From Bernardetia sp. (lineage in GTDB: Bacteria; Bacteroidota; Bacteroidia; Cytophagales; Bernardetiaceae), in NCBI RefSeq assembly GCF_020630935.1, contig NZ_JAHDIG010000052.1, forward strand, positions 1 to 35,971: 35,971 bases of DNA. The letters run 5' to 3'. The notes under the pieces are model-generated. The model saw nothing but the letters and a program-made list of their open reading frames with translations, made no database searches and was not told the DNA's origin. Numbering within the stretch: position 1 is the first letter of the stretch; each line of letters opens with the position of its first letter. A program made the position numbers and the translations under genes. This document shows positions 4,256-12,911 of the stretch, one piece after another.

Positions 4256-5527
4256 ATGAAAACACAAATACTAGAAAAAAATACTCCTACTGCCATCGTC
4301 CCTACCAACGACCAATATCTAAAAACTAGACAACGAACACTCTCCCTGTGTCAAGATTTAGAGCCAGAAGATTTTGTAGTGCAGCCGATGGTAGATGTAA
4401 GTCCTACTAAATGGCATTTGGCACATACAACGTGGTTTTTCGAAACGTTTTTACTTGTTCCTTATCTCAAAAATTATCAAGTTTTCCACAAAGATTATAG
4501 TTTTTTGTTCAATAGTTATTATGAAACTGTTGGAAAACGTGTTTTGAGGGCAAACAGAGGCAATCTGACACGACCAACGACGAAGGAAATTTACAAATAC
4601 AGAGAATATGTAGATAATTCTATTTTATTATTTTTTGATGAGCTAGAAAAAGGCAATTTTGATGTAGAAACACAAGCTAAAATAAAAAAACGTCTTTTTA
4701 TTGGTCTAAATCACGAAGAACAGCACCAAGAACTTTTGGTAACAGACATAAAATATGTGTTGGGAAATAATCCTCTTTTCCCTGCTACGAAAATGCCCAT
4801 TCAAGATTTTACAATCTTTGTAGGTTCAAGGCACGCCTTTACCTCAAATGAAGAAGAAATACAGGGAAATTTTATAAAAATCAAAGAAGGAATTTATCAA
4901 ATTGGTTTTAATTCAGAAAATGAAAATGATTTTTATTTTGATAATGAGAAAGGCGTTCATCGTGTATTTGTAGAAGAATTTGAAATTGCTAAAAACTTAG
5001 TTACTAATAGAGAATATTTAGAATTTATTGAAGCTGGTGGCTATCAAAATTTCAACTTTTGGTTTGCCGAAGGATGGGATTTTGTGAAAGAAAATAACTT
5101 AGAAGCTCCTTTATATTGGTTTAAAGAAAATGACGAATGGCTATGTTACGACTTTAATAATTCGGAAAACGGACTACAAAAAATAGATTTAGATGCCCCA
5201 CTTTGCCACATCAGTTTTTACGAAGCCGAAGCCTACGCACAATTTAGAAATATGCGCCTGCCGACAGAGCAAGAGTGGGAAATTGCTAATGAGTTTTTTG
5301 AATGGGGCAAGCGTTGGGAATGGACACGCTCTGCCTATCAGCCTTATCCAAACTTTGAAAAAGATGAAGGGGCATTGGGTGAGTACAACGGAAAATTTAT
5401 GGTCAATCAGCTTGTCTTGCGTGGAAGTTCGGAAGCAACTGCTCCAAATCATTCTAGACCAACCTATCGTAACTTCTTTCATGCTGACAAACGCTGGCAA
5501 TATACAGGAATACGTTTGGTAAAGTAG
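4256..5527 (+). CDS. egtB: Ergothioneine biosynthesis sulfoxide synthase EgtB-like
   Basis: A 423-residue non-haem iron enzyme predicted to join cysteine or gamma-glutamylcysteine to hercynine (trimethyl-histidine) as a sulfoxide. The N-terminal DinB-like domain carries WHLAHTTWFFE (H54, H57) and HEEQHQE (H153, H157), the likely iron-binding histidines. From about residue 205 an FGE-sulfatase domain follows, with typical LPTEQEWE (335-342) and the C-terminal RGSS...RPTYRNFF...YTGIRLVK. Length is normal for EgtB and there is no methyltransferase domain as in OvoA. No egtD, egtC or egtE homologue is nearby: a transposase precedes it and a 596-bp gap follows. EgtB versus another member of the EgtB/OvoA family cannot be settled from motifs alone. 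Confidence 0.88.
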   Translation: MKTQILEKNTPTAIVPTNDQYLKTRQRTLSLCQDLEPEDFVVQPMVDVSPTKWHLAHTTWFFETFLLVPYLKNYQVFHKDYSFLFNSYYETVGKRVLRANRGNLTRPTTKEIYKYREYVDNSILLFFDELEKGNFDVETQAKIKKRLFIGLNHEEQHQELLVTDIKYVLGNNPLFPATKMPIQDFTIFVGSRHAFTSNEEEIQGNFIKIKEGIYQIGFNSENENDFYFDNEKGVHRVFVEEFEIAKNLVTNREYLEFIEAGGYQNFNFWFAEGWDFVKENNLEAPLYWFKENDEWLCYDFNNSENGLQKIDLDAPLCHISFYEAEAYAQFRNMRLPTEQEWEIANEFFEWGKRWEWTRSAYQPYPNFEKDEGALGEYNGKFMVNQLVLRGSSEATAPNHSRPTYRNFFHADKRWQYTGIRLVK

Positions 5528-6123
5528 AGTTATTTTTACTAGAAATTATCAAAAAACCTGTAAAACTACTTTTATAATCGTTTTATTGAAGCTAAATTTG
5601 TAAATTGTATAATCGAATTGTTTTGATAATTTGAGTTTTTATTCAAATTGTATTCAATTTATAATACATTTTTCTCTAAAAAAGAGAAGTAACACTGACC
5701 TTTACAATCAAAAAAGTCAGCCTAAAAGGTTGATTTATACATATATAGCAAAATAAAATAGCGATTTTTTAATATAAATAATAAAGTTAAATGTAAGAAC
5801 AAGGCTTGCCTTGTTTAGAAGATATAGAAAATATTTTTCTGAAAATTTATAGAAATAAACCTTTAAGATTTATGAAATCTTTATAGGCTTTTGCGAGTAT
5901 ATTTGCTCATACATGCTTGCTTGTATTCAAGTTAGGTTATTTTTCTTTATGTAGAGAAATGAATCTGTTTTTATGTAGAAACAGAAATACGAATGATAAA
6001 TTATTGATTATCAATGAGTTTTGGAGTTGAAAAAACTAATTCGTAATTAGCTACGCTGAATGTAGTTCATAATTGACAAATTCGTAATTAAAATATTCAT
6101 TTAATCTAAAGAAAATATATATA
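5528..6123. other. 596-bp non-coding gap between egtB and rny
   Basis: Very AT-rich with no supportable ORF or RNA gene. It holds a decayed REP-like hairpin (5798-5815) and two copies of AATTCGTAATTA, at 6038-6049 and 6079-6090. The RNase Y promoter should lie here but I cannot pick a convincing one. Confidence 0.6.
5798..5815. repeat. REP-like hairpin remnant
   Basis: AACAAGGC and GCCTTGTT form a perfect 8-bp stem around TT, preceded by TGTA at 5792-5795. The form (TGTA...AAGGC.TGCCTT) resembles the RAYT-flanking palindromes at 3577 and 4206, with the outer part lost on the right. I read it as an old member of the same repeat family. Confidence 0.45.
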
Positions 6124-7725
6124 ATGTATCTTGAACTTACCATTACGGCTGTTGTGGCTCTAATTGTAGGAATTTTGATAGGGCGTTTTTTGCTTATCAA
6201 GGTTCTTGCAGGTCTGAAAGAAAAGGCAGATAATGAAGCCAAACAAATTCTACAAACAGCCAAAGCTGATGCTGCAAATCTTCTGAAAGAAAAAGAATTG
6301 GCTGCTAAAGACCACTTTTTGAAACTCCAAGCAGACCATCAAAGAGAATCTAACAAACGACAAAAAGGAATTGCTTCACAAGAATCTAAACTCAAAAAGC
6401 AAGAGCAGCGTTTCCAACAAATCGAACTCAAACTCAAAGAAAAAGAAGTTTCTATAAACAAAGAGCAAGAACTTCTCAATAAAGAACTCCACAAACATCA
6501 GCAGCGAAAAGACGATTTATACAAAAAAATGGAAGCTGTGGAGCAAAAAATGGAAGATGCTAAAAGACTTGAGAAAGAAAAAATTGTTTTGTTAGAAAAA
6601 GTATCTGGACTTTCAGCCGAAGAAGCTAAAAATCAGCTTATTGAATCCTTAGAAAAAGAGGCGCAAACCTTAGCCACAGCTAAGATTCGTCAAATTATGA
6701 GCGATGCTGAACTTACAGCTACAAAAGATGCTAAACGCTTAGTTCTTTCTACTATTCAACGCACAGCTACTGAACACGCCATCGAAAACTGTGTTTCTGT
6801 CTTTCATTTGGAAAGCGATGATATTAAAGGAAAAATTATTGGTAGAGAAGGGCGAAATATCAGAGCCTTAGAAGCTGCCACAGGTGTTGAGATTATTGTA
6901 GATGATACGCCAGAGGCGATTACTATTTCTGGTTTTGACCCTGTCAGAAGAGAAATTGCTCGCCTTTCCTTGCATCGTTTGGTAGCAGATGGAAGAGTAC
7001 ACCCAGCAAGAATTGAGGAAGTTGTTGCCAAAACGACCGAACAACTGGAAGAACAAATTATTGAACTTGGAGAGCGTGCTGTTATTGAACTTGGAATACA
7101 CGGACTGCATTTAGAACTCATCAAACTTGTTGGAAAAATGCGTTTTCGTTCGTCGTATGGACAAAATCTCTTACAGCATTCTAAAGAAGTTACTCGCCTT
7201 TGTGCCACGATGGCATCCGAAATGGGCTTAAACGTAAAACTTGCTAAGCGTGCAGGGCTTTTACACGATATTGGAAAAGTTTGTACAGAAGACCCAGACA
7301 AACCACATGCTATTTTAGGAATGGAACTCGCAGAGCGTTATGGCGAACATCCAGAAGTTTGTAATGCTATCGGTGCGCACCACGATGAAATTGAAATGAC
7401 TTCGATGCTTTCGCCTGTTATTCAAGCCTGTGACGCTATTTCTGGGTCAAGACCAGGGGCAAGGCGTGAAACCATGGAATCTTATATTCAGCGTTTGCAA
7501 GACTTAGAAAATTTGGCTACCTCGTATGATGGCGTAAACAAATGTTATGCTATCCAAGCAGGGCGTGAACTTCGTGTGATTGTAGATTCTGAAAATGTGA
7601 TGGATGATAAAGCAGACGAAATCGCTTTCAAAATTTCACAACAAATTCAGACTGAAATGCAATATCCAGGGCAAGTAAAAGTAACTGTCATTCGTGAAAA
7701 ACGAGCGGTGCATTATGCGAAATAA
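6124..7725 (+). CDS. rny: Ribonuclease Y
   Basis: A 533-residue membrane-anchored endoribonuclease that starts mRNA decay. Domains in order: one N-terminal transmembrane helix (about 5-26), a long charged coiled coil (about 28-185), a KH RNA-binding domain with GREGRN at 240-245, and an HD catalytic domain with H381-D382 (GLLHDIGK), supported by H352 and HH at 419-420. Length and order are standard for the family and the C-terminus ends in the usual [11 protein letters not shown]. The ATG at 6124 places the membrane helix at the N-terminus. It appears to be a single-gene unit, with a REP-like sequence after its stop. Confidence 0.97.
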
Positions 7726-7761
7726 ATGTAGAAGGTAGATTTTTTGAATGATAAATTATTA

Positions 7762-7790
7762 TAGGTAAAAGGCTTGCCCTTTTCTAGCCT
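7762..7790. repeat. Possible decayed REP-like palindrome
   Basis: TAGGTAAAAGGCTTGCCC followed by TTTTCTAGCCT is an imperfect inverted repeat with the AAGGCTTGCC core seen at 5801-5810. It lies between rny and the methyltransferase gene. Mismatches are numerous, so this is a weak call. Confidence 0.3.
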
Positions 7791-7800
7791 TTAAAATAGT

Positions 7801-9783
7801 ATGAAATTTAAGTTTATAGATTTATTTGCTGGAATTGGTGGGTTTCACTTAGCAATGCACAGACTGGGTGGAGAGTGTGTTTTTGCATCTGAAATTGATG
7901 ATTTTGCAAGAGAAACTTATAAAACTAATTATCAAAATATATCTCCTAAGCTATTTCAAAATAAATTATTCAATAAGGATATTCGAAGCATAAATCCAAA
8001 GGATATTCCAGACTTTGATGTCTTGTGTGCTGGTTTTCCTTGTCAGCCATTTAGTCAAGCAGGATATAAGAGAGGGTTTGACGATAATCACAGTTCAGAG
8101 AGAGGAAATCTGTTTTTCAATATTGCTGAAATTTTAGAAACTAAGAAACCAAAAGCGTTTTTCTTAGAAAATGTGCGTGGTTTAGTTTCTCACGACAAAG
8201 GAAAAACCTTCAAAATCATTAGAAATATTCTTGAAAACGAATTGGGTTACTCTTTTTATCATAAAGTTGTACAAGCTTCGGATTATGGCTTGCCACAACT
8301 TCGTCCTAGAGTTTTTATTGTAGGTTTTAGAGACGAGGGTTTTATGAATAGTTTTAACTTTCCTGCACCTATTCCTTTAAAATTTACAATGAGCGATGTT
8401 TGGGGAGGAGAGTGTAGCAGAGAAATAGGCTTTACAATTCGTGTAGGTGGGCGTGGTTCAGATATTACAGACCGTAGAAACTGGGATAATTATTTAGTAG
8501 ATGGACAGACTAGAAGATTATCTTACGTGGAGGCGAGAAAAATGCAAGGCTTTCCAGATGATTTTGAGTTTCCCGTAAGTAAGACACAAGCTATAAAGCA
8601 GTTAGGAAATAGTGTAGCTGTTGATGCGGTGGAAGCTGTTGCAAAAAACTTATTACAACATTTAGAAACGCTAGAGAAAATTCAAACGCAAGAAAAAATT
8701 AATAGTGAAAAGATGGCAATTAAAGCAACAAAAAACAAAGGTGAGTGGACAGAACTACTACTTTTTATCAAATTACTTTTAGATAAAAAATTGTATTTAT
8801 CAGATGAAAATCTTAATACTACACAGAGTTTCTTTAAAATAAATAAAGTAACAACTCATAATCTAGATTTGGAATTCCTATTGTCAGATTCTTCTACTAT
8901 CAAAATAAAAAATAAAGAAGACCAAGAGGAAAAAGAAGTGAATATTTCAGAAATAATTAATGCTTCTGTGATAGAATCTTTTGTTGAAAAAATAAAATCT
9001 GAAAAGGGAACTTTTGAAATACCAGCTTTCAACATTATTCAAGATAGGTTAGGCTTCAATATTGTCAAAGGAGGAAATAGCAATCAAAAAGCTGATATCT
9101 TACTAAATATAAAAAATAATTCTTTTGAGAAAGAAAATGAAGGGTTTGGAATTAAATCCTATTTGGGAAGTAAGCCTACACTTTTAAATGCTTCTGGAAA
9201 TACAAACTTCATTTTTAAGATAAATGGTCTAAAAAAAGGTAGTAAAGAAGTTATTGATGAAGTAAACCGAATTAATACTAGAACCAAACTAAAAGATAGA
9301 ATCAATAGAATTGAAGAGTTAGGAGGTAGCTTTCAATATTTAGGAGCAGAAAGAGAAACTATGGAGTTTAACCTTAAAATGGTAGATAGTCAAATGCCGA
9401 TCATAATCGGAGAGATTCTACTTTGCTTTTACAAAGAGCGTATCTCTTCTATTAAAAAAATTACTGAAAAAATCGCAGGAGAAAATACAGATAATAAGGT
9501 TTTATTGGAAAATAAAATTAAGAATCTTTTGGTAAATATTCTTCTAGGTTTCTTTGCTGGGACAAAATGGGATGGTTCTTTCGAATCTAATGGAACAATC
9601 GTAATGAAAAACAATGGAGATTGTGTAGGTTTTCATATTGTAGAAATGGAAAATCTGAAAAATTACCTTTTTGAAAATATTAAATTAGATACACCTTCTA
9701 CAACAAGACATCGTTTTGGACAGCTTTATACTGAAAAAAATGGAGATTTATTTTTTAAGTTGAATCTACAACTACGTTTTTAA
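7801..9783 (+). CDS. Fused DNA cytosine-5 methyltransferase / HpaII-type restriction endonuclease
   Basis: A 660-residue protein that appears to be a whole type II restriction-modification system in one chain. Residues 1-287 are a cytosine-5 methyltransferase: motif I DLFAGIGGFHLA (8-19), motif IV GFPCQPFSQAG with catalytic Cys81, motif VI LENVRG (E123), motif VIII around QASDYGLPQLRPR (158-170), a compact target-recognition region (about 195-237) and motif X QLGNSVAVDAVEA. Residues about 305-660 resemble the HpaII endonuclease family: NKGEWTELLLFIKLL at 312-326, DENLN at 335-339, and ADILL...GFGIKSYLGSKPTLLNASG (431-466), where D432 and K452 are candidate PD-(D/E)xK residues. Met305 could be an internal start for free nuclease. 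Target CCGG is inferred only from the HpaII relationship. No separate R, M or S gene is adjacent. Confidence 0.87.
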   Translation: MKFKFIDLFAGIGGFHLAMHRLGGECVFASEIDDFARETYKTNYQNISPKLFQNKLFNKDIRSINPKDIPDFDVLCAGFPCQPFSQAGYKRGFDDNHSSERGNLFFNIAEILETKKPKAFFLENVRGLVSHDKGKTFKIIRNILENELGYSFYHKVVQASDYGLPQLRPRVFIVGFRDEGFMNSFNFPAPIPLKFTMSDVWGGECSREIGFTIRVGGRGSDITDRRNWDNYLVDGQTRRLSYVEARKMQGFPDDFEFPVSKTQAIKQLGNSVAVDAVEAVAKNLLQHLETLEKIQTQEKINSEKMAIKATKNKGEWTELLLFIKLLLDKKLYLSDENLNTTQSFFKINKVTTHNLDLEFLLSDSSTIKIKNKEDQEEKEVNISEIINASVIESFVEKIKSEKGTFEIPAFNIIQDRLGFNIVKGGNSNQKADILLNIKNNSFEKENEGFGIKSYLGSKPTLLNASGNTNFIFKINGLKKGSKEVIDEVNRINTRTKLKDRINRIEELGGSFQYLGAERETMEFNLKMVDSQMPIIIGEILLCFYKERISSIKKITEKIAGENTDNKVLLENKIKNLLVNILLGFFAGTKWDGSFESNGTIVMKNNGDCVGFHIVEMENLKNYLFENIKLDTPSTTRHRFGQLYTEKNGDLFFKLNLQLRF

Positions 9784-10970: not shown

Positions 10971-11034
10971 ACAGGAAACAAAAGTTGTTGGTGTCGCTAT
11001 GCTAAAACACCAACGAACTGTATTTTGTCCCTGT
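10971..11034. repeat. Nested inverted repeat with shared TTGTTGGTGTCGCTAT core
   Basis: An inner hairpin pairs GTTGGTGT (10987-10994) with ACACCAAC (11007-11014). Outer arms ACAGGAAACAAAA (10971-10983) and TTTTGTCCCTGT (11023-11034) pair imperfectly around it. The 16-base core at 10985-11000 recurs exactly at 19968-19983, again as part of a hairpin. It lies in the 5' region of the secreted metalloprotease gene. Confidence 0.65.
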
Positions 11035-11053
11035 TCTGTAACACACAGAACAA
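11031..11053. repeat. Triloop hairpin, copy 1 of a 23-nt dispersed element
   Basis: Arms CTGTTCTGTA and CACAGAACAA flank an ACA loop, and eight inner base pairs form (TGTTCTGT with ACAGAACA). The same element with a perfect 10-bp stem occurs at 35934-35956. A T-A pair here is a C-G pair there. It lies between the nested repeat and the metalloprotease start. Confidence 0.65.
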
Positions 11054-11099
11054 CAAATATCTGTTTATGTCCAGTACTCTACATCAAATTATTATACAA

Positions 11100-12911
11100 A
11101 TGAAATTTCATTCTATCTCAAAATATATTTTAGTCTTGGTTTCTATTACCTGTTTGAATAGCATTTTATTTGCCCAAAACAAACAGTTATCAGAAGAAGA
11201 TATAGCTTTTTCTAGGCAATGGGAAGCCAAACTCAATCACGCACTTTCTCATTCCCATACAGAGCGCAACGACAAATCGCACCATTCTTGCCTAACTCTA
11301 GTGCTTTTGGAAGGGCAGCAAAATAAAAAACGACTTACTCTACGTCTTGAAAAAATTCTTCGAACACATAGCGAACGTATAGAATTGAATTTCTTTTTTG
11401 ATTCAGAACATTATCGTTTTCATTATGACAAAACAGGAGTAAATGCTGTGGACATAACAGATGAGAATAACAACGATGTGCCAGATTACATAGAATTTAT
11501 GGCAACAGAATTTGAGAATGTCTATAATAAAGAAATAAATGAATTGGGTTATGTTGCCCCTCCAAGTGACGGAACAGAAGGTGGTGGAGAAGATTTATAC
11601 GATGTTTATGTTACTGATTTGCAGCAAGGTTTGTATGGATACGTAGCTTCTGAAAATATGATAGGCGATAATCCAAACTCTACAGTTATTGAAACAGAGG
11701 CAAGTACAAGTGTTATGAGAATGCGAAATAATTACGATGATTTTGATTTGAAAAACGATGCATTGAAAGTAACAGCAGCACACGAGTATTACCACTCTAT
11801 TCAGTTGGGATATAAAGCAGATTTTTCAAATATATTTGCACTAGAAGGTTCTGCCTCTTGGATGGAAGAAGTAATTTACCCTCGCATAGATGACAATTTC
11901 CAATATTTAGATGCCGTTTTTGATAATCCTGATGTAGCTGTAAACTACAATTTTGGAGATGAAGACGACCCAGATTTTAATGACTTTACAACACAATGGT
12001 ATGGAGCTTGGATATTTTTTCAGTATATAGGAGAAACTTATGGGGTAGATGTGGCTAGAGTTCTTTGGGAAAATATGCGCTCACAAGCAGAATTAGAAGC
12101 CTTAGATAATGCTTTAAAGACTAAAGGTATAAATTTACAAACTGCTTTTGAAGATTTCTTTGTGGCAAATGTTGTGTTGTCTGCTAGTTCGGCATCTAGC
12201 CCTTATACATATAATCGTGCTGCTGATTATATCAATTATTTGAGCGAAAATATTAATTCTGAAACGGTAAAGATAGAAGGTACACTAGACTTTTCAAATC
12301 AAGCGAGAGTGTGGTATAGCAATCAACAGGGAAACGGAAGACTGATGCGTTTTTCGGCTGATTATATTCGTTTAGATACACAAGAACAAGATTTTGTAGT
12401 GGATATAGTACCAAAAAACTCACAAGGAAAGCAAATAGGAGTTCAGTTTGTTAGTTTTCAGCCTAATGGAAGTGTAAGGGTAATAAAAGATTATCCTGCT
12501 GTTGGCGAAAATGCTGAAATCACAATTGATGCAGCTACACAAAGCGAACAAATGTACTTGATTGTGTACAGAATAGGAACTGCTTTAGATGATTTTACTT
12601 CCGAACAATACAGTTTAAGAATATATAAAGAAGGTACTATTTTGGGAATAGATGATAAGTTGGGAACAGATAACTATTTTAACATTGCCTCAAATCCAGT
12701 TACTGATAGACTGAAATTTGTATATAAACTGCAAAATCAGAGTAATAAAAATTATACAGTTTCTATTACAGATATTTTAGGTAGAAAAATAATTGAAAAT
12801 CAACCGATAAAGACATCCATAAATACAAATAAATGGGCTAAAGGAACATATATGGTAACACTTTTTGATGAAAAACAGCCTATTGCAGTTCGTAAAATAA
12901 TTATTCAGTAG
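11100..12911 (+). CDS. Secreted MXAN_6640-like metalloprotease with T9SS sorting domain
   Basis: With the ATG at 11100 this is a 603-residue exported protein: signal peptide MKFHSISKYILVLVSITCLNSILFAQ, a catalytic domain with the zincin motif HEYYH (H228, E229, H232) and a downstream ALEGSASWMEE that likely supplies the third ligand, then a beta-rich region and a C-terminal type IX sorting domain (about the last 80 residues, NYFNIASNPVTDRLKF to VRKIIIQ). The calcium-like segment TDENNNDVPDYIEFMA is typical of this group. An open frame begins upstream at TTG 11025, but it runs through the hairpin repeat and would bury the signal peptide. It is probably exported through the T9SS to which GldN belongs. 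Confidence 0.85.
   Translation: MKFHSISKYILVLVSITCLNSILFAQNKQLSEEDIAFSRQWEAKLNHALSHSHTERNDKSHHSCLTLVLLEGQQNKKRLTLRLEKILRTHSERIELNFFFDSEHYRFHYDKTGVNAVDITDENNNDVPDYIEFMATEFENVYNKEINELGYVAPPSDGTEGGGEDLYDVYVTDLQQGLYGYVASENMIGDNPNSTVIETEASTSVMRMRNNYDDFDLKNDALKVTAAHEYYHSIQLGYKADFSNIFALEGSASWMEEVIYPRIDDNFQYLDAVFDNPDVAVNYNFGDEDDPDFNDFTTQWYGAWIFFQYIGETYGVDVARVLWENMRSQAELEALDNALKTKGINLQTAFEDFFVANVVLSASSASSPYTYNRAADYINYLSENINSETVKIEGTLDFSNQARVWYSNQQGNGRLMRFSADYIRLDTQEQDFVVDIVPKNSQGKQIGVQFVSFQPNGSVRVIKDYPAVGENAEITIDAATQSEQMYLIVYRIGTALDDFTSEQYSLRIYKEGTILGIDDKLGTDNYFNIASNPVTDRLKFVYKLQNQSNKNYTVSITDILGRKIIENQPIKTSINTNKWAKGTYMVTLFDEKQPIAVRKIIIQ

Follow-up and report, generated by a model that had tools for sequence, protein, structure and literature searches.

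A putative natural single-chain restriction-modification enzyme that joins a C5-cytosine methyltransferase to an HpaII-type endonuclease

Restriction-modification (R-M) systems in which endonuclease and methyltransferase share one chain are known as Type IIC/IIG enzymes, among them Eco57I, MmeI, BcgI, TstI and BtgZI, in the last of which the methylase, of the alpha class, is N-terminal and the nuclease C-terminal (PMC4081073; the papers cited here are drawn on in excerpt, and statements based on them hold for the excerpted text). All 12 proven natural Type IIC enzymes listed in Table 2 of a 2011 paper are N6-methyladenine (m6A) enzymes (PMC3039593). Here we describe a gene in a 35,971-nucleotide stretch of a Bernardetia sp. 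genome (Bacteroidota; assembly GCF_020630935.1, contig NZ_JAHDIG010000052.1, positions 1 to 35,971 of the forward strand; hereafter the window) which, as judged from its sequence, likewise has a restriction (R) and a methyltransferase (M) domain in one polypeptide. It differs from the Type IIC/IIG enzymes in that its methyltransferase is of the C5-cytosine type and comes first, and in that both halves are full-length relatives of stand-alone enzymes; the gamma-class m6A methylation domain of Type IIG enzymes is not what its M half contains, which matches PF00145 and TIGR00675 and has PCQ and ENV motifs. We hold with good confidence that the gene encodes a natural, one-gene R-M enzyme in a single chain, with CCGG as its most likely target, which would have arisen from a head-to-tail M-R gene pair and spread horizontally.

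A chain of this kind has been made in the laboratory. In the engineered RM.Eco29kI the 5-methylcytosine (m5C) methylase and the nuclease of a palindrome-specific Type IIP system were joined and found to be functional in vitro and in vivo, and its authors proposed that natural counterparts could exist; the fusion was strongly biased to cutting in vitro and gave hundredfold protection against phage, compared with ten-thousandfold for the natural pair (PMC3039593). That fusion has R before M, a GIY-YIG nuclease and the site CCGCGG, whereas the window gene is natural, has M before R and is HpaII-type. HpaII systems have been described as two-gene pairs from katablepharid mitochondria and Algibacter, for which CCGG methylation and toxicity of the endonuclease were shown (PMC8099122). 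Two-gene systems have an RE_HpaII nuclease beside a C5 methylase, as the window gene does, but in separate genes; their R is mostly 29–37% identical to that of the window, and most of their methylases have an N-terminal extension. We considered this extension as a possible regulator and rejected it, as Pfam named nothing there in either of the two proteins checked. In a survey, only 0.9% of Type IIC systems were > 50% similar to two-gene Type II systems, from which its authors concluded that fusions of this sort are rare, and the excerpted text of that survey names no m5C or HpaII fusion family (PMC4176335). No natural m5C R-M fusion was described in the literature which we searched, which covers few subscription papers and not the REBASE listings. 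Combined R-M chains (Type IIC) are already known; what is new here, as far as this literature shows, is that such a chain occurs naturally and widely in an m5C form, with M preceding R and an HpaII nuclease.

The sequence-only reading of this stretch had proposed a whole R-M system in one uninterrupted 660-codon frame, with m5C methyltransferase motifs followed by an HpaII-family C-terminal half, and this was borne out. The frame translates without a stop, and neither a stop nor a frameshift lies between the domains (Table 1). Cys81, Glu123 and Gly269-Asn270 were found at the residues which had been named, and M carries the PCQ, ENV, RxR and GNSVA motifs of C5-cytosine DNA methyltransferases. 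The PF00145 match to M falls into two stretches, the best one covering residues 3–186, and TIGR00675 is the dcm family. The C-terminal half scored 334 bits (cut-off 25) against PF09561 (RE_HpaII) over positions 1–359 of 359; R thus spans the complete profile of a stand-alone endonuclease, and M has its own recognition segment. PADLOC also identified a C5-cytosine methyltransferase at the N-terminus and, like Pfam, an HpaII or Type II endonuclease at residues 310–660. Both Pfam families were matched by all 29 aligned fused proteins. These share Cys81, Glu123, Glu315, Glu318 and Lys452 without exception, and 28 of them have Asp at position 432.

By their ratios of nonsynonymous to synonymous substitution rates (dN/dS), both domains are under purifying selection: values were 0.045–0.108 for M (9 pairs) and 0.048–0.106 for R (8 pairs; dS infinite in one). 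It should be noted, as a point against relying on these values, that dS was > 1 in most of the pairs used. For the linker dN/dS was 0.24–1.37 over 11–21 codons (seven pairs; dS infinite in two), and the distance from motif X to the NKGEW motif was 34 residues in 23 of 34 fused loci and 43 in the window gene. Profiles, catalytic residues, purifying selection on both halves and the conservation across phyla set out below support the view that the gene is a single-polypeptide m5C R-M system with an HpaII-family nuclease.

The AlphaFold2 model of R had a mean predicted local distance difference test score (pLDDT) of 93.9 and a predicted template modelling score (pTM) of 0.91; for the full-length protein pTM was 0.53, so that the arrangement of the domains is not fixed by the model, and the linker was of low confidence. 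The best match of M in the PDB was M.HhaI, both by sequence and by the fold of the full model. The best structural matches of the R model, which have no sequence match to it in the PDB, were HinP1I (Z 6.7) and MspI (Z 6.6), with the next entry at 2.1 (995 chains realigned). MspI cuts CCGG. These matches span 171–182 residues at 12–13% identity, and two points weaken them: a Z below 8 is weak, and Foldseek with the R model gave no PDB match below E 0.001. A search of the PDB with the R sequence at E up to 10 returned only one, unrelated match (0.31). In predicted fold R may resemble MspI and HinP1I.

A scan for loci across 84,980 species genomes, using an alignment of R, gave at least 543 confirmed loci, of which the best 80 were kept. 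Identity of R to the window was ≥ 49% in the first 33 of these and ≤ 39% in the other 47. A script marked 32 of the 33 closest loci as having M and R in one frame, and 26 are complete (including L069, taken as the same locus as G488:C61, and L076, taken as G504:C94). The incomplete loci comprise L080, which lacks its last residues, and L078 and L093, which lack the start, all at contig ends, as well as L091 and L101, which are frameshifted, L100, with an in-frame deletion in R, and L099, which is split. Taxa named in the record titles of these 33 loci are Bacteroidota, Pseudomonadota, Cyanobacteria, Gracilibacteria and Caenarcaniphilales. Single host names are unsure, since many of the records are metagenome assemblies, but those of Flavobacterium branchiophilum, Aureispira, Flavivirga and Cellulophaga carry no such mark. 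Each of the 11 host genomes which were searched whole had one full-length copy. The window genome has a single such fused gene, and its two other methylase matches are distant.

At closer range, the gene is intact in three of the seven genomes of the genus (the window genome, G412 and G488), and a sample of 390 genomes from the order added a fourth intact gene in another family (G504); the open frame recurs at 85% identity in G412 and G488 and at 73% in G504. In a sample of 395 genomes from the phylum there were 11 with a RE_HpaII match, and only that of the window lay in a frame much longer than R alone. Among viral contigs, 5 stretches matched a pattern and none encoded a relative, in a search with a single protein as query which reaches close relatives only.

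Of the 47 more distant loci, 45 are unfused and two from Bacillota are separately fused, with M and R both complete: L104 (714 codons) and L136 (752 codons). In a tree of R, from which L033 (a duplicate of L076) and L099, L100 and L101 (partial R) were left out, the fused loci formed a clade of 32 rows with a Shimodaira–Hasegawa-like approximate likelihood-ratio test (SH-aLRT) support of 100, and the label 'fused' required three changes, most simply three gains. This suggests that fusion arose about three times in one nuclease family. The tree of M, which left out 14 loci with partial or missing M as well as L033, grouped the fused M with the M of ten two-gene systems on the same side of a branch (support 100), with the fused clade itself at 92. 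Of 13 two-gene loci, 11 have the start of R no more than about 30 bases from the M stop or have R overlapping that stop; L042 and L043 have other sequence between the two genes. In L036, one of the ten two-gene loci whose M lies beside the fused M in the tree, M and R are in the same frame and nine bases apart, so that loss of a stop codon would suffice for fusion. We therefore propose that a head-to-tail M-then-R pair would have become fused, most simply through loss of the M stop codon, and that the fused gene would then have spread horizontally as a self-contained unit. The window fusion fits a prediction of 2011 by which head-to-tail gene pairs can give rise to Type IIC enzymes (PMC3039593).

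Two further features of these loci were observed. Five Bacillota loci (L108, L128, L131, L136 and L144) have two C5-methylase matches ahead of the HpaII endonuclease, and in L136 it is the second which is fused to R. The two-gene pair of L036 (G402:C23, 9,123 bases; positions 5968–7956) contains 21 in-frame TGA codons. In its M, 10 of 11 TGA codons fall on columns which are Gly in 13–16 of 16 relatives; of the 10 in its R, just 3 are at columns which are mostly Gly. Two genes beside the pair, one for a HamB-like helicase (PADLOC, 1.7e−52) and one of 235 codons, have no TGA among 40 glycine codons, and no tRNA gene was found on L036. The pair looks like a restriction system whose source organism translates TGA as glycine and which was either transferred into a standard-code genome or binned with one; in such a genome it would be silent.

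CCGG had been put forward as the target on the strength of the family name. The depletion of CCGG in fused genes and their hosts supports this indirectly, and the recognition segment of M speaks against it. The window contains no CCGG where 17 are expected. In 33 pooled fused genes (L104, L136, L033 and L084 left out; L091, L101 and L100 kept in) there were 3 CCGG compared with 41.9 by synonymous shuffling (ratio 0.07), with ratios of 0.22 for GGCC and 0.47 for GATC. Among 12 fused hosts sampled more deeply, CCGG observed/expected was ≤ 0.21 in 10, with a median of 0.11, compared with a median of 0.96 and a lowest value of 0.33 in 17 random Bacteroidota (P = 1.6e−5; of 20 control stretches, 3 were below 15 kb and were dropped); it should be noted that the controls are all Bacteroidota whereas 6 of the 12 fused hosts are not, and that two of the 12 share a genus. 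In the flanks of the loci CCGG stood at 23/190 (0.12) in 31 fused hosts and 293/485 (0.60) in 47 two-gene hosts, a contrast (permutation P = 0.0002 for CCGG; P = 0.02 for GGCC) from which hosts with < 1,500 flank bases and L104, L136, L033 and L084 were left out; in the flanks of 9 two-gene hosts with the short recognition segment it was 0.85.

Several results weigh against CCGG. Two of the 12 fused hosts are not CCGG-poor (0.73 and 0.74), and fused hosts have little GGCC as well (P = 0.0001 vs controls). In the positive control of 48 two-gene canonical systems (L027–L030, L036 and L099 left out) there were 93 CCGG vs 123.4 expected (0.75), with GGCC at 0.47 and GATC at 0.44, a weak depletion which makes depletion an unsure pointer to the target. 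Relatives within the genus which lack an intact gene are equally or more CCGG-poor (G425 0.05 and G514 0.01, vs 0.12 in G000). The recognition segment differs from the longer one found in 10 of 12 aligned two-gene methylases (L036 shares the short one, and L027 is unlike both), so that the canonical site might not be common to M and R. A comparison of this segment with plasmid and phage records found distant methylases only, at 32–52% identity among the matches listed, and no named specificity.

Avoidance of palindromes within the genus was not decisive for the target, as CCGG, CGCG, GGCC and GATC are avoided with or without an intact gene, and the comparison across hosts is more telling. In samples from G000 (436 kb), G412 (416 kb), G425 (415 kb) and G514 (276 kb), CGCG was at 0–0.02, GATC at 0.04–0.20, GGCC at 0.02–0.14 and CCGG at 0.01–0.12 of expectation; GCGC was not avoided and TGCGCA was. 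That the target is a GC-rich palindrome other than CCGG is unlikely, though it deserves to be taken seriously: besides the recognition segment unlike those of M.HpaII type and the mild depletion in two-gene HpaII systems, the closest solved methylase, M.HhaI, has the target GCGC, and depletion also affects GGCC and, in some hosts, CGCG and GATC. However, no other tetramer tested was depleted as consistently as CCGG in fused genes and in hosts, and GCGC is not depleted in the four genus genomes. CCGG is thus the most likely target on the compositional evidence. The fused gene is found mostly in CCGG-poor genomes, a depletion which it might or might not have caused.

Internal initiation at Met305, whose ATG is indeed where the earlier reading had placed it, had been suggested as a way to protect the host. 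This is not conserved as a requirement: an ATG lies 4–9 codons before NKGEW in 24 of 34 fused loci and is missing in 10, and 4 of the 34 have no ATG, GTG or TTG within the 15 codons before NKGEW, although in the window genome itself such initiation could occur. The 34 loci take in the frameshifted L091 and L101 as well as L100 with its deletion. Two proteins might nevertheless be made, either the full chain plus a free nuclease starting at Met305 or a chain which is cut at the linker. The ATG kept near the ancestral start of R in most fused loci is consistent with the first and the poorly conserved, low-confidence linker with the second, but the loci which lack the codon count against it, as does the danger which free R would presumably pose where M is missing, and we regard this as distinctly improbable. 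The Met305 codon looks instead like a relic of the old start codon of R.

Loss of the nuclease does occur in this family. The site after the RNase Y gene holds the fused gene or its remains in six of the seven genomes of the genus. In G412 the intact gene directly follows RNase Y. G450 has kept M (91% identical, residues 1–295) and lost R up to about residue 420, leaving an open frame of 548 codons. Nothing but the two gene ends is left in G425, in G475 and at the RNase Y locus of G488, with differing break points, and G488 has its intact copy on another contig. In G514 (84% complete) RNase Y is followed by a frame read as ribulose-phosphate epimerase, without remains of the gene. L034, L035, L066 and L067, downstream of RNase Y, represent four different internal deletions at one chromosomal site in one genus; three of the four leave only gene ends, which in G488:C99 form a short open frame.

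G450, together with the comparable in-frame loss inside R of L100, shows that methylase-only derivatives exist, and the window gene could itself be a methyltransferase whose nuclease half is inactive or being lost. We consider this very unlikely, since the invariant Glu315, Glu318 and Lys452 and the near-invariant Asp432 are shared by the window protein and its 28 aligned fused relatives, R is under purifying selection by the estimates above, and the CCGG-poor hosts fit active restriction. However, low values on their own are no proof of activity, as dN/dS is just as low in the remnant of R in G450 (0.065 and 0.081). In the four cases of decay in the genus R or both halves are gone and M alone is gone in none, as would be expected if loss of M only were unsafe. 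As M comes first, truncation of M by a stop or a frameshift should normally take R with it, and a lethal R-only state would be rare. Set against this, L091 and L101, outside the genus, are frameshifted in M with the frame of R wholly or partly open; if real, these frameshifts run counter to the view that loss never begins with M, and they may be assembly errors. That the fusion is an artefact, with two genes joined by a sequencing or annotation error, is next to impossible even though M and R almost touch in two-gene relatives, as the same open frame with a linker of near-constant length is present in many independent assemblies across phyla.

No recurring partner gene is found near the fused gene. 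Among the neighbours of 35 loci (≤ 4 kb on each side, often less) none was common to more than two loci, the larger neighbour clusters being open reading frames which overlap the fused gene itself. A scan for promoters and terminators gave nothing clearly beyond chance. Elsewhere in the window are an EgtB-type ergothioneine biosynthesis protein (4256–5527; TIGR03440, 1.9e−147), two genes upstream of the fused gene, and a putative metalloprotease of the MXAN_6640 family with a type IX secretion system (T9SS) sorting domain (11025–12911).

Table 1 Features of the fused gene and its upstream landmark, in window coordinates
Feature	Position	Strand	Basis
Fused M-R gene	7801..9783	+	660 codons + stop, stop-free translation
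C5-cytosine DNA methyltransferase domain (M), residues 1–290	7801..8670	+	PF00145 1.6e−81; TIGR00675 2e−82
Catalytic Cys81, PCQ motif	8041..8043	+	C in 29/29 aligned fused proteins
Glu123, ENV motif	8167..8169	+	E in 29/29 aligned fused proteins
Short target-recognition segment, about residues 193–241 (bounds by eye)	8377..8523	+	Alignment of methylases
Linker, residues 291–311	8671..8733	+	Fast sequence evolution, near-constant length
Met305 ATG, probable relic of ancestral R start codon	8713..8715	+	Start-codon conservation
HpaII-type restriction endonuclease domain (R), residues 312–660	8734..9780	+	PF09561 1.3e−99; AlphaFold2 model
Glu315 and Glu318, first R helix	8743..8754	+	E in 49/49 aligned R domains
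Asp432, probable nuclease active-site acid	9094..9096	+	D in 48/49 aligned R domains
Lys452, probable nuclease active-site lysine	9154..9156	+	K in 47/49 aligned R domains, R in 2
RNase Y gene, directly upstream landmark	6124..7725	+	NCBIfam; locus comparison across genus

In the single-chain enzyme which we propose, the N-terminal half would methylate C5 of cytosine in the target and the C-terminal HpaII-type nuclease would cleave the same target when unmethylated, with the short linker tethering the two modules; these activities, the shared target and the order of events on entry into a cell we infer. The host would be safe because few sites need protection. The engineered Eco29kI fusion, cut-biased yet protective, indicates that a fused chain can be viable but may be risky in site-rich genomes, a risk which few sites would lower. 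We tentatively go one step further, to a natural family of one-gene, single-chain m5C R-M enzymes with two independent recognition modules which would persist mainly where CCGG is rare, their safety coming from the scarcity of sites and not from delayed expression of the nuclease. MspI and HinP1I act as monomers. A review has suggested that, before they form nuclease dimers, Type IIC chains go through a range in which they are monomeric and only methylate (PMC12707154). This idea would not apply if R acts as a monomer like those two enzymes.

These systems bear on how restriction genes move between cells and on how they might be used. As reagents, the fused enzymes are possible self-protecting nucleases. 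The usual answers to the open question of how a naive cell survives the arrival of a restriction system, which are controller proteins, separate promoters and staggered expression, all depend on two genes. With R and M fixed at a 1:1 ratio, a conserved one-gene system would exclude these two-gene answers unless R is also made alone, and the mechanisms of entry which then remain, namely assembly from monomer to dimer, slow cleavage and a small number of sites, would become testable.
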